Origin: Alphaproteobacteria bacterium
GTDB taxonomy: Bacteria > Pseudomonadota > Alphaproteobacteria > CAAHEQ01 > UBA3637
NCBI GenBank assembly: GCA_015062395.1
Contig: SUUS01000013.1
Coordinates: forward strand, 1-32,786
DNA: 32,786 bases
Direction: 5' to 3'
Below the pieces are notes generated by a model. It was not told the origin of the DNA, made no database searches, and saw nothing but the letters and a program-made list of their open reading frames with translations. Below are positions 20,280 through 32,786 of this stretch, piece by piece. Numbering within the stretch: position 1 is the first letter of the stretch; each line of letters begins with the position of its first letter. Made by a program: the position numbers and the translations under genes.

Positions 20280-21308
20280 TTACATCTCTTTACCTTGAGA
20301 CAAAAGACGATTTCTTTGCCGTTCTTGAGCCAAAGCCATACTCATACAATCTCTGGCAAAATCCATAATTTTAGGGAACCTTTCATTATCCCAAAAATCT
20401 TCAAATTTTCCCAGCTCTCCAACTTGTTGGCTCAAAGAATGTTGCCATTCCTCTTTACAGTAATCTTTTAAAGATTTTCCTTCTGAATTTGGTGTTGTCA
20501 ACAACGTTTCATCCAAATTAAGTGGTAAATTTTTAAATCTAAATTTACCTATCATCGCTTCTCCGATTTCAAGCTTTTTAGATTGAATATCTGGATGAGC
20601 ATACAATATATGCAAATCATATAAATCACGAGGAGAACAACGTTCAAATAAAGAACGAACTTTTTCTGCAAACATCCCTTGTAAAGAATAGCAACGCGTT
20701 CTTAAATTCTTTTCTTTTTCGTTGTCTGATGGATATGGATGATAAATTGCCTCCAAGGATGGTTCATAAACAACTTTTTCATCAGCAGTAATATCTATCT
20801 TTAAATTTGGAGGAGATAATGGTTCAAATTTCTTTCCCTTTGCTTCTGCTTTTTGTCGCAAAACTTCCAGTCCATGCAAATAAAGTGGTCCACGATAACG
20901 AAGCCCTGCTCTGGAATTTGTTTTTTCCTGTTTTGGATTAAAATGCATTGGAAATGAAAGATCTTCCAAAATCAATCCATGTTCTTTTTCCAAATAATCG
21001 GCCACTTGCGAAAAAGCTTCTATCAATTTATCCGTACTCATTAATCGCTTTGAAATCGTCAAATCAATATCGGAAGAAAATCTTCCTTGAGTGAAATAAG
21101 GATCCAACGTTTTAGCATCTTTTGGTCTTTCAAAAAAAGTAAAACACTTATGAACACATGTTCCACCTTTGAAAATAACATCATCTTTTGTCTTTTCACA
21201 TTTCGATAAAGCATCCAAAATCAATCCCATCACATAATCTCGTTCCAAACGTTCTGCTTTTATATGTGCTTTTTTTGCAATTTTAATAAGTACTGATGCA
21301 TCTATCAT
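20280..21308 (-). CDS. AbiEii/AbiGii-type nucleotidyltransferase toxin
   Basis: The 342-residue protein, counted from the ATG at 21308, has the type IV toxin motifs: IFKGGTCVHKCF (GGT at 48-50), RFSSDIDLTI (D80, D82), NLKIDITADE with a further Asp, and PRDLYDLHIL. AbiEii proteins are nucleotidyltransferases; relatives add nucleotides to tRNA 3' ends and stop translation. The longer frame up to 21479 would overlap the antitoxin gene deeply. The ATG at 21308 gives the usual 4-base ATGA overlap with the antitoxin, so it is chosen. Its real target is not shown by sequence. Confidence 0.88.
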   Translation of the reverse strand: MIDASVLIKIAKKAHIKAERLERDYVMGLILDALSKCEKTKDDVIFKGGTCVHKCFTFFERPKDAKTLDPYFTQGRFSSDIDLTISKRLMSTDKLIEAFSQVADYLEKEHGLILEDLSFPMHFNPKQEKTNSRAGLRYRGPLYLHGLEVLRQKAEAKGKKFEPLSPPNLKIDITADEKVVYEPSLEAIYHPYPSDNEKEKNLRTRCYSLQGMFAEKVRSLFERCSPRDLYDLHILYAHPDIQSKKLEIGEAMIGKFRFKNLPLNLDETLLTTPNSEGKSLKDYCKEEWQHSLSQQVGELGKFEDFWDNERFPKIMDFARDCMSMALAQERQRNRLLSQGKEM

Positions 21309-21757
21309 TTTTCTGATTCCTGTATTAATTTTAAAATATGAGAAACTTTTTGAGGCGCTAAAATCTGCTTTGCATATTTCAACAACAAAGATGGATTGTA
21401 TAAAGGGCTTTCTGCATATATCGAAAAAATATAATCGACTTGTCGCTCTCCACCAGCCCATTGTGGAAATGCGAAACAATCTGTCATTGTTTTAGTTGGG
21501 GAAGAAACATAAAAACCACCCTCTTCTTCAGCTTGGAGTTTAATATCAAAGAAAAAAGTCTCTGGAACTTTTTTTATCCGTACATTCAAATCGCATATCG
21601 TTTTAGTTGTTTCTTGCGTCTTTGAAAACAGGATGACATCTCTGGGTAATTCATCAATAATTTCCCAAAATTCTGCAGCACTCCACGAAGCTAGATAGCA
21701 ATCAGGACATTCCTTTGCTATTTCGATATAGGGATTTTCATACAAAACATCTGTCAT
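21305..21757 (-). CDS. AbiEi-like antitoxin without N-terminal HTH
   Basis: The 150-residue protein has the AbiEi core: YLASWSAAEFWEI (like SxWSALExWGL), a beta-rich middle and SPTKTMTDCF (the S.EKTxxDC motif). AbiEi antitoxins usually start with a winged helix-turn-helix of about 60 residues that represses the operon. Here the protein begins almost directly at the core. AAGGAG lies eight bases before ATG 21757, and no HTH-like frame is seen upstream to 21900, so this seems to be its natural start. Regulation of the pair must then differ. The gene overlaps the toxin by ATGA. Confidence 0.8.
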   Translation of the reverse strand: MTDVLYENPYIEIAKECPDCYLASWSAAEFWEIIDELPRDVILFSKTQETTKTICDLNVRIKKVPETFFFDIKLQAEEEGGFYVSSPTKTMTDCFAFPQWAGGERQVDYIFSIYAESPLYNPSLLLKYAKQILAPQKVSHILKLIQESEK

Positions 21758-21857
21758 CAAAATAACTCCTTCTTCTTTATTCTATCACAAAAATTAAAAA
21801 AATCCAGCTTTTTATAATAAATATCACATAAAAACGAAACTTTTCGGTCAAAAAACA

Positions 21858-26892: not shown

Positions 26893-28356
26893 TTACTTTC
26901 CTTTTCCAGCGATTTTAACTGCACCCACCAGGGCATAATTTTTAGCCTTATCCCATAATTTTACAGCATTTTCGCCAGCTTCCCGAACGAAAGTTTCAGC
27001 GATTTGACGCTTTTGTTCTGGTGTTAAATTTTTAAATCCATCAATATCGCGTTCCAAACCTCTCATAGTGACTTCGACAGCATTAGAAACTTTTTGCGTA
27101 GCTTTTTGAACTGGTTGCGCAGCTCTTCGCAAAGCACCCTTTATACCAGCAACTTTACCAGCAATAAATCCTTTTGAAGCATCAATGCCATCTTTTCCTG
27201 CTTTTTGCAAATCTTTCAAAAAACCTTCTGCAATCATTTGCTGTTGATCTTTTGGTAATTCTGTAAAACCTTTGACATCACGCCCGAAACGAACCAAAAC
27301 TGCTTGAATTTGATCGTACTGTTCGCCAGTCTTTTGTGCAGCTTTTCCCAAAACGCCTTTTACAGAAGCGATAGCTTTTCCAGCAGCATTACCTACTGGT
27401 ACTGCAGCCTTTTCAACCATTCCAGAAACAGTTCTGGCAACATCGCGACCAAATGCTGCAGGATCTTGAGCAATCCCATCAACGGTTTCACGAAGTGTTG
27501 CTACCTCTTCTTTTACTGGCTGAACAACGTATTTATCAACAACACGTTTTGTTGTATTGGCTGCATCTACCATTGGTGCTGTAGCCTCTTTAACCATTCC
27601 AGAAACAGTTCTGTCAACATCGCGACCAAATGCTTTTGGATCTCGAGCAATCCCATCAACGGTTTCTGCAACGGTTTTTACTGCAGGAGCTTTTTTTACA
27701 TCTTCAGCAAATGCTTTTGGATCCTGTACAATTCCATCAACAGTTTCTGCAACGGCTCCTAGTACAGGAACTTTTTTTACATCTTCAGCAAATGCTTTTG
27801 GATCCTGTACAATTCCATCAACAGTTTCTGCAACGCTTCTTACTGCAGGAGCTTTTTTTACATCTTCAGCAAATGCTTTTGGATCCTGTACAATTCCATC
27901 AACAGTTTCTGCAACGGCTCCTAGTACAGGAACTTTTTTTACATCTTCAACAAATGCTTTTGGATCCTGTACAATTCCATCAACAGTTTCTGCAACGCTT
28001 CTTACTGCAGGAGCTTTTTTTACATCTTCAGCAAATGCTTTTGGATCCTGTACAATTCCATCAACAGTTTCTGCAACGGCTCCTAGTACAGGAACTTTTT
28101 TTACATCTTCAACAAATGCTTTTGGATCCTGTACAATTCCATCAACGGTTTCTGCAACGGCACCTAGTACAGGAGCTTTTTTTACATCTTCAGCAAATGC
28201 TTTTGGATCCTGTATAATTCCATCAACAGTTTCTGCAACGGCTCCTAATACAGGAACTTTTTTTAGATCTTCAACAAATGCACCTGCGTTCTGTCCAATT
28301 CCATCAACTGTTTCTTTAACTGCTTTTCCAACCTTTTTTAAAGCTTCTTTAACCAT
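26893..28356 (-). CDS. Helical tandem-repeat protein, unknown function
   Basis: The 487-residue protein has no signal peptide or membrane segment. Residues 14-229 are eight copies of a 27-residue unit, for example AETVDGIVQDPKAFAEDVKK plus a 7-residue linker that alternates between VPVLGAV and APAVRSV types. Two degenerate copies follow (ETVDGIARDPKAFGRDV, ETVDGIAQDPAAFGRDV), then a Lys/Ala-rich C-terminal part with two similar segments (RFGRDVKGFTELPKDQQQMI and GLERDIDGFKNLTPEQKRQI). The repeats look amphipathic and helical, like LEA or apolipoprotein-type proteins, suggesting a stress-protective, membrane-coating or scaffold role, but this is inference. AAAGGAGG precedes ATG. I do not recognise the family. 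Confidence 0.8.
   Translation of the reverse strand: MVKEALKKVGKAVKETVDGIGQNAGAFVEDLKKVPVLGAVAETVDGIIQDPKAFAEDVKKAPVLGAVAETVDGIVQDPKAFVEDVKKVPVLGAVAETVDGIVQDPKAFAEDVKKAPAVRSVAETVDGIVQDPKAFVEDVKKVPVLGAVAETVDGIVQDPKAFAEDVKKAPAVRSVAETVDGIVQDPKAFAEDVKKVPVLGAVAETVDGIVQDPKAFAEDVKKAPAVKTVAETVDGIARDPKAFGRDVDRTVSGMVKEATAPMVDAANTTKRVVDKYVVQPVKEEVATLRETVDGIAQDPAAFGRDVARTVSGMVEKAAVPVGNAAGKAIASVKGVLGKAAQKTGEQYDQIQAVLVRFGRDVKGFTELPKDQQQMIAEGFLKDLQKAGKDGIDASKGFIAGKVAGIKGALRRAAQPVQKATQKVSNAVEVTMRGLERDIDGFKNLTPEQKRQIAETFVREAGENAVKLWDKAKNYALVGAVKIAGKGK
27670..28317 (-). repeat. 81-bp tandem repeat array (8 units)
   Basis: Eight in-frame units of 81 bases encode the 27-residue repeats. Several units differ by only a few bases. 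Alternate units are more alike, giving a 162-bp higher-order period. This is the mark of recent unequal recombination or slippage, so copy number may vary between strains, always in frame. Confidence 0.92.
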
Positions 28357-31850: not shown

Positions 31851-31869
31851 ATTAATGTTTTCTACACTT

Positions 31870-31906
31870 CAAGAGATTCTTCGGGCTGACGCCCTTCAGA
31901 ATGACG
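31870..31906 (+). repeat. Palindromic interspersed repeat, copy 1
   Basis: Begins CAAGAGATTCTTCGGGCT, ends TTCAGAATGACG, with an inner GGGC/GCCC hairpin. It is 37 bases, one base different from copy 2. The sequence resembles the GTCATTCTGA...GAATCTC type of interspersed repeat found in many bacterial genomes. Confidence 0.8.
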
Positions 31907-31920
31907 AACGACACATACCC

Positions 31921-31953
31921 CGTCATCCTGAACGGATGTGAAGGATCTCATGA
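31921..31953 (-). repeat. Palindromic interspersed repeat, inverted divergent copy
   Basis: CGTCATCCTGAACGGATGTG and AAGGATCTCATGA match the reverse complement of copy 1 with several changes in the centre. Confidence 0.7.
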
Positions 31954-31981
31954 ATTGTGGTACGACGTGGGTACAAAACCT

Positions 31982-32018
31982 CAAGAGATTCTTCGGGCTG
32001 GCGCCCTTCAGAATGACG
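31982..32018 (+). repeat. Palindromic interspersed repeat, copy 2
   Basis: A 37-base direct copy of the unit at 31870; a single A to G change in the loop (CTGGCGCCC). Confidence 0.8.
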
Positions 32019-32040
32019 TTCTGTTCGTCCCACACTTGAT

Positions 32041-32069
32041 GAGATATTTCGCATTCACTCAATATGACG
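32041..32069 (+). repeat. Degenerate interspersed repeat copy
   Basis: GAGATATTTCGCATTCACTC followed by AATATGACG keeps the ends of the unit (GAGAT, TTTCG, ATGACG) but lost the inner hairpin. Confidence 0.4.
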
Positions 32070-32110
32070 TGATAAAAAAAAGATAAAAATCCTATGTCCA
32101 AAAAACGTTC

Positions 32111-32139
32111 TTGACTAAAGATTTTGATTCGTTTAAAAT
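32111..32139 (+). promoter_or_regulatory. Predicted promoter of the prepilin-like gene
   Basis: TTGACT (32111-32116) and TAAAAT (32134-32139) are 17 bases apart, 44 bases before the ATG at 32184, with AAAGGAAG as ribosome binding site between. Confidence 0.7.
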
Positions 32140-32183
32140 GAGGGAAATTTAACAAGTTTTTTTATAGAAAGGAAGTATTTAAT

Positions 32184-32786
32184 ATGTCCATTAATTTATT
32201 CAAATTTACCCCCCCCCCCCGAATTTTCAAGTAAATTCAATGACTTACAGGACATTCCTGATTTAAACCCTGTTTCTAATTCCAATTTTCAATCCAATTT
32301 TTCTTCTATTTCTCGCCATTCTCAATTCGGTCGTTCGATGATTGAAATGTTGGGCGTGTTGGCTGTAATTGGTGTTTTAAGCATTGGTGCTGTTTTGGGT
32401 ATCAGATATGTCTTGGACAAACTGTCTGCTAATTTGGTTTATAAAGAAGCTGCTTCTCAAGCTGCCGAAATTCTGAATAAAAAAGTCATATACACAACCG
32501 AAGCAAATGGGTTAGAAATTGCTTATGCTTATTCTTCTAAATACATTCATTCCAGAGAATTTAAAACTTCTTCCAGAGATACGATTTTGTTGTTCGCAAA
32601 CAATTTATCTGCTGGCGTTTGTAATAAATTAATCACTGAAGAAGAAGGCAATGTTTTTACTCGTATTTATCCAAAAGATAGCACTTCATGCCAAGATACA
32701 AATACCGTTGTTTTTCAAATCAACGTAGGAAAAAAACGGACGCCAAATATACCAAATCCGCTTCCGACAGAAGAATGTACTGAAAA
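32184..32786 (+). CDS. Prepilin-like protein, out of frame at a poly-C tract, runs off the window
   Basis: The ATG at 32184 opens MSINLFKFTPPPRIFK and then stops at 32232-32234, because the 12-C tract (32209-32220) is one base too long, or two too short, for the main frame. From 32221 a frame without stops runs 188 codons to the window end. It contains FGRSMIEMLGVLAVIGVLSI: a prepilin-type Gly (32329-32331), Glu at +5 and a hydrophobic helix, as in type IV pilin and pseudopilin N-termini. The rest is Ser/Asn-rich with two Cys in a likely disulphide (GVCNK, TSCQD). The leader before the Gly would be about 50 residues, long for a prepilin. No other start with a binding site exists in the second frame. 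Tracts of 11 or 14 C would fuse the frames. The gene is also incomplete at its 3' end. Confidence 0.8.
32209..32220 (+). repeat. Homopolymeric C12 tract near gene start
   Basis: Twelve consecutive C in a roughly 35% GC genome, eight codons after the ATG of the prepilin-like gene. No other G or C run of similar length occurs in the window. Such tracts are typical sites of slipped-strand mispairing. Confidence 0.95.

Follow-up and report, generated by a model that had tools for sequence, protein, structure and literature searches.

The window analysed here (32,786 nucleotides) spans contig C11 in full; the genome to which this contig belongs measures 1.357 Mb. The gene of interest runs up to the contig end and its 3' end is therefore missing. 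A promoter, a ribosome binding site and an ATG precede a run of 12 C (Table 1), which lies eight codons plus one base after the start; all of these elements were found where the first-pass annotation had placed them. With 12 C, the frame that begins at the ATG comprises 16 codons. With a tract length of n = 2 mod 3 (11 or 14 C), this start would be joined to a frame that stays open for 188 codons to the end of the window (32221-32784) and carries a GRSMIE motif at 32329 with Glu at +5, as that annotation had also reasoned. The first ATG, GTG or TTG of the ON frame is the Met codon within this motif (32338), so that the OFF state would yield no complete prepilin.

Table 1. Features of the poly-C locus at the end of the window.
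Feature	Position	Strand	Evidence
Sigma-70-type promoter of leader A: TTGACT (32111-32116), 17 bp, TAAAAT (32134-32139)	32111-32139	+	Sequence; kept in 13 leader copies, 81-100% identity
Ribosome binding site AAAGGAAG, 8 nt ahead of the ATG	32168-32175	+	Sequence; kept in nearly all leader copies
First 8 codons, from the ATG at 32184 (MSINLFKF + A); N-terminus constant in leader A	32184-32208	+	14 genome copies of ATGTCCATTAATTTATTYAARTTT
C12 tract, proposed slippage switch; 12 = OFF, 11/14 = ON	32209-32220	+	Length varies in paralogs, flanks nearly identical
Leader peptide ahead of the putative prepilin peptidase site, ON-frame reading	32221-32328	+	Open frame; near-identical sequence after the tract of the copy on contig C29
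Type IVb pilin-like domain (predicted) G^RSMIEMLGVLAVIGVLS, runs past contig end	32329-32784	+	27 aligned homologs; AlphaFold2 model; VIA-align

Apart from the C12 tract, no C or G homopolymer of the window is longer than 6. Under a first-order Markov model, 6e-5 runs of at least 12 are expected per window, in agreement with the earlier claim that the 12-C run is improbable by chance. For runs of at least 10, 0.08 are expected in the whole genome versus 12 observed. Eleven of these 12 are held by one of two leader modules, A and B, and the homopolymers thus found at coding starts and promoters are far above chance. The twelfth is a run of 11 G on contig C2 of the same genome (G000 C2:33861-33871, L009, minus strand), which breaks the frame of a long coding sequence, presumably for an aryl-sulfotransferase-type enzyme; this may be another switched gene.

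Two leader families in the genome

A genome-wide search for further tracts near the starts of prepilin-like genes, as the first-pass annotation had suggested, identified 14 copies of leader A together with the poly-G-bearing leader B. The sequence ATGTCCATTAATTTATTYAARTTT occurs in 13 exact copies and one with two mismatches (none in the reversed control), each closing a leader of about 100 bp and followed by ACn; 13 leader A copies retrieved by DNA search are 81-100% identical to that of the window. A fixed tract of 11 C, named earlier as a sign of assembly error, is not what the paralogs carry: their tracts comprise 6, 12, 13 or at least 14 C, or are interrupted, and with one genome per species as the comparison base these are differences between paralogs. 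All three uninterrupted tracts that can be read across (6 C, 12 C in the window and 13 C) are out of frame and hence OFF. All three interrupted ones (CCCCCTCCCCC, CCCCCTGCCCCCCC and TCCCCCCTCCCCCC, with totals of 11, 14 and 14) are in frame and hence ON, although a TAG follows soon after the TCCCCCCTCCCCCC tract. Interrupted tracts are to be expected in a copy locked in the ON phase. The remaining leader A copies end at a contig edge inside or just past the tract. Contigs break at the tracts (for 11 of the 12 of at least 10, the nearest contig end is at most 600 bp away), leaving many leader copies incomplete, and the counts of 14 for leader A and about 10 for leader B are counts of leaders, not of complete genes. 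Outside its own genome, leader A gave two weak partial matches only among the 57 genomes searched, and none in viral contigs. Intergenic repeats (GATTCTTCGGGCTGACGCCCTTCAGAATGACG) that resemble dispersed palindromic elements occupy window positions 31862-32090 and are also present upstream of most copies of both leaders.

In leader B the homopolymer lies within the promoter. The sequence AAAAAAGGACTTGACA with 7 or more G after it was found at 11 places in the genome, about 8-10 of which are clear copies of the module, with tracts from G8 to G19. Its layout is TTGACA-Gn, then TATG-T-TATAAC, a stem-loop and ATGCAACAAAATCGTGATAAAAAAGC; where the contig is long enough, the same GRSM prepilin genes follow. 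The -10 element is of the extended TGn form and the G tract therefore sets the spacer. Spacers to TATAAC that are readable in this genome, counted by hand from the sequence, measure 13, 13, 19, 19, 23 and 24, where both 19s are interrupted tracts and one 13 ends at a contig edge. The stem-loop in the 5' UTR is 16 bp long (-30.8 kcal/mol, z -6.2). For one copy with a G8 tract (G000 C13:2141-2164, L043), the downstream gene is unrelated and no clear -10 can be seen, which gives the impression of a relocated leader or a replaced gene. Leader B matched viral contigs twice, with unrelated genes downstream.

The frames behind the tracts are under purifying selection. In most pairs of copies dN/dS is well below 1 (about 0.02 to 0.46); the copies on contigs C2 and C38, both OFF in the assembly, differ by 4 nonsynonymous and 14 synonymous changes (dN/dS 0.06). 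Frames behind OFF tracts are therefore not decayed, and the low ratios imply that they were expressed and selected in the past. The downstream frame, whose decay in relatives would have spoken against the earlier reading, is conserved in paralogs and relatives. As judged from the frame logic and the dN/dS of 0.06, a change in tract length would switch a conserved and otherwise intact gene; in the window itself, the contig ends before the gene does. The cassette behind leader A on contig C38 is 99% identical to that behind leader B on C31 and 98.7% identical to that behind leader B on C8. Such near-identity across leaders points to an exchange of leader and cassette modules between loci.

The pilin-like domain and the pilus machinery

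The longest members of the family that could be read comprise 830-850 residues. In these proteins, a leader peptide and a GRSM[IVL]E signal are followed by a pilin-like domain, by segments rich in Cys (64-75 Cys) and by poly-Ser stretches. The prepilin signal of the window protein has Gly at -1 and Glu at +5, and its helix (residues 2-55 in the model) is hydrophobic. Arg at the prepilin +1 position is unusual, and the low score against the Pfam N_methyl model (PF07963; 14.7 bits, below the 21.2 cut-off) may reflect it; such a cut-off is a matter of scoring and does not describe a structural trait of the family. TIGR02532 also scored below its cut-off. The large proteins matched no pilin family confidently in Pfam or NCBIfam, a sequence search of solved structures returned nothing convincing, and Foldseek alone gave no confident match. 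When the window domain was aligned with 27 domains from other genomes, two cysteines proved invariant.

The AlphaFold2 model of the window domain (pLDDT 77) shows a pilin layout. Among the Foldseek candidates realigned with VIA-align, the top rows were type IVb pilins, namely 9iuf (Z 8.8 over 127 residues), 3fhu (S. Typhi PilS; Z 7.9) and 8uhf (TCP; Z 7.6), followed by C. difficile PilW and then CofB (Z 5.5); the first row unrelated to pili scored Z 4.1. Z values near 8 are moderate, but the best rows are consistent among themselves and with the sequence motif. The modelled structure thus suggests a type IVb pilin fold.

A single locus in the genome encodes TcpQ, a secretin, PilO, T2SSE (the ATPase) and T2SSF (the platform protein), providing the assembly machinery, and a prepilin peptidase (Peptidase_A24) is also present. 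At C33:55.8-56.7 kb lies a tandem pair of small pilin genes that lack tracts; either could encode the main subunit. The first-pass annotation had named a surface filament subunit as a typical phase-variable target; the window product looks less like a main subunit than like a large type IVb minor-pilin-like protein, one of a big family.

Long tracts in related genomes

Homologs are numerous in uncultured Alphaproteobacteria, mostly metagenome-assembled genomes from animal guts as judged by title in a scan of named genomes. Three of the closest homologs carry poly-G just upstream (TTGACA-G11 in L094, TTGACA-6-G13 in L096 and TTGACA-3-G11 in L099). Within the same family, two genomes from other genera hold 69 (G017) and 57 (G022) tracts of at least 11. 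The single genome of the same genus (G001) has no tract of at least 11 and no leader match, and others also lack tracts of this length; the trait is therefore patchy. The pattern TTGACA-N0-8-G11 is present in 5 of 43 genomes of the order (none in the reversed control), with 49 overlapping matches in G017 and 22 in G022, and the spacers to the best -10 in relatives cluster at about 16-20 bp. G022 has a frame-switch leader of its own, an ATG and six-codon ATGTTCACTTTAACCAAAATTA-Cn that recurs ahead of genes for secreted Cys-rich proteins; some of its tracts have an ON length (C13) and some an OFF length (C12, C15). A glycosyltransferase-like gene of this genome also starts with a tract. A ribosome binding site and ATG precede the C run in 23 of 70 tracts versus 2 of 70 in the control direction, in samples that are non-random and contain related, non-independent copies.

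Prepilin domains were found in all 20 genomes tested, at 11 to 104 per genome, and the prepilin family is therefore wider than the switches. The tracts of G005 are not at prepilin starts, so that some tracts in the group are of another kind. In G017, a TTGACT-CT-G11-TATGC-TATAAT promoter precedes an ankyrin-repeat-like gene (L217, contig C23), by which the switch reaches beyond pilin-like genes. Ahead of prepilin genes of G022 (L243, L252), promoter spacers are built from poly-C (TTGACTG-C14-TATGGTAAAGT) in addition to poly-G.

Proposed switching and alternative explanations

We consider it very likely that the 12-C run is a contingency-locus switch within a large phase-variable family of Cys-rich, Ser-rich minor-pilin-like proteins that is controlled by two mechanisms. 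The phase-variation reading of the first-pass annotation is strengthened by the two leader families, the ON and OFF phases, the selection on the frames and the relatives with long tracts. Slipped-strand mispairing at replication would add or remove C in the tract. At n = 2 mod 3 the ribosome would cross a short poly-proline stretch into the prepilin signal and the type IVb pilin-like domain, and then into Cys-rich and poly-Ser regions as in full-length paralogs; at other lengths translation would stop within about 30 codons. About 14 genes would be frame-switched in this way; for roughly ten further copies of this type, transcription would be switched through the distance that poly-G sets between -35 and -10. 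The products would be exported by the type IVb pilus machinery of the genome as minor or tip pilins, and each cell would display a randomly drawn part of a large adhesin-like repertoire. We infer the switching itself from sequence, and the adhesin function is proposed by analogy with PilV and PilC. For a broader scheme of two-layer random display we judge the chances to be even. Here, giant type IVb minor pilins would be controlled in one set by poly-C in the signal peptide (translation) and in another by poly-G in the promoter spacer (transcription), leaders and adhesin cassettes would be exchanged, and pilus tips would differ from cell to cell; in relatives the scheme would cover dozens of loci and also Cys-rich proteins secreted through Sec.

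Homopolymers are error-prone, and the closeness of 11 of the 12 tracts of at least 10 to contig ends would fit an assembly or sequencing error, with the true tract in frame or the poly-C an artefact. Such an error is nevertheless highly improbable, given that the window tract is flanked on both sides, that long tracts occupy the same functional place in paralogs and distant relatives (some deep inside long contigs), and that interrupted tracts, which are not pure homopolymers, still keep the ON phase. The two-colour poly-G read artefact leaves contigs that end in G or start with C; this was rejected as a source, as those contigs on which leader A is cut off at the tract (C17, C30, C39 and C25) end in C in the gene direction. 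We regard it as extremely unlikely that the gene is decayed and the frameshift a plain pseudogene mutation. The window frame is indeed broken in the assembly, a TAG follows the tract in the copy on contig C29, and the copies on contigs C12 and C2 break up further downstream; however, downstream frames are open and selected even between two OFF copies, the promoter and ribosome binding site are kept, and 188 codons are open in the window.

Slippage could also act mainly in transcription or on the ribosome, giving a constant low level of protein instead of on/off switching. A run of 12 C could slip in transcription, but the tracts of leader B lie in promoter spacers, where a change in DNA length alone can act, and several copies have an interrupted in-phase tract, as expected if slippage of the DNA matters; we find this reading very unlikely. 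Somewhat less remote, though still unlikely, is that the leaders serve mainly as recombination sites between gene copies (antigenic variation), with tract length secondary. The occurrence of the same prepilin cassettes behind leaders A and B (98.7-99% identical) favours it, whereas the phase of the interrupted tracts and the promoter-spacer place of the G tracts would be left unexplained; recombination is also compatible with switching by tract length.

Homopolymer phase variation has been studied mostly in a few cultured mucosal bacteria (Neisseria, Campylobacter, Haemophilus). The order described here is uncultured, small-genomed and gut-associated; in some members the long C/G tracts number as many as about 70 per 1.3 Mb, and many of these sit in promoter spacers or at start codons and target large pilus-like surface proteins. 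Cells of gut commensals are thus predicted to differ strongly from each other at their surface, and the tracts may explain assembly breaks at these sites and broken-looking genes.

The individual parts are of known kinds and are joined here in more copies and in a host group that is new for them. In Neisseria pilC the G/C homopolymer lies near the start of the coding sequence, and PilC, present in one or two copies, is not a pilin. Frame switching by a homopolymer in pilC, which encodes a tip adhesin of type IV pili, is established (Jonsson 1991, cited in PMC5084427; Rudel 1995, cited in PMC9045228). As in pilC, a G/C homopolymer would turn a pilus-associated gene on and off by frame shift, but the targets here are prepilin-like, with about 14 copies under one common leader. 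Leader B resembles N. meningitidis opc and porA, in which a homopolymer also lies between -35 and -10 (Sarkari 1994; van der Ende 1995; both cited in PMC5084427), in that tract length would set promoter strength; it differs in that about ten copies of the promoter module stand before members of a single gene family, and in its strong 5' UTR stem-loop. The PilV shufflon of R64/TP114, in which the C-terminal adhesin part of a type IVb minor pilin is varied (PMC9045228, PMC5430464), likewise belongs to a type IVb pilus with machinery genes of similar type, but acts by DNA inversion within one gene, in contrast to the many separately switched genes here. With CofA/CofB, TcpA and S. Typhi PilS the window domain shares the type IVb pilin fold, according to its model, yet sequence identity is about 15%, the GRSMIE motif has Arg at +1, and the paralogs carry a long Cys-rich and poly-Ser C-terminal part. 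Our literature search found nothing on phase variation or type IV pili for this lineage, and no record of the combination.

Elsewhere in the window, the minus strand encodes a protein of tandem AETVDGIVQDPKAFAEDVKKVPVLGAV repeats (26893-28356) and a two-gene pair (20280-21760) that resembles an AbiE-type toxin-antitoxin or phage-defence pair.
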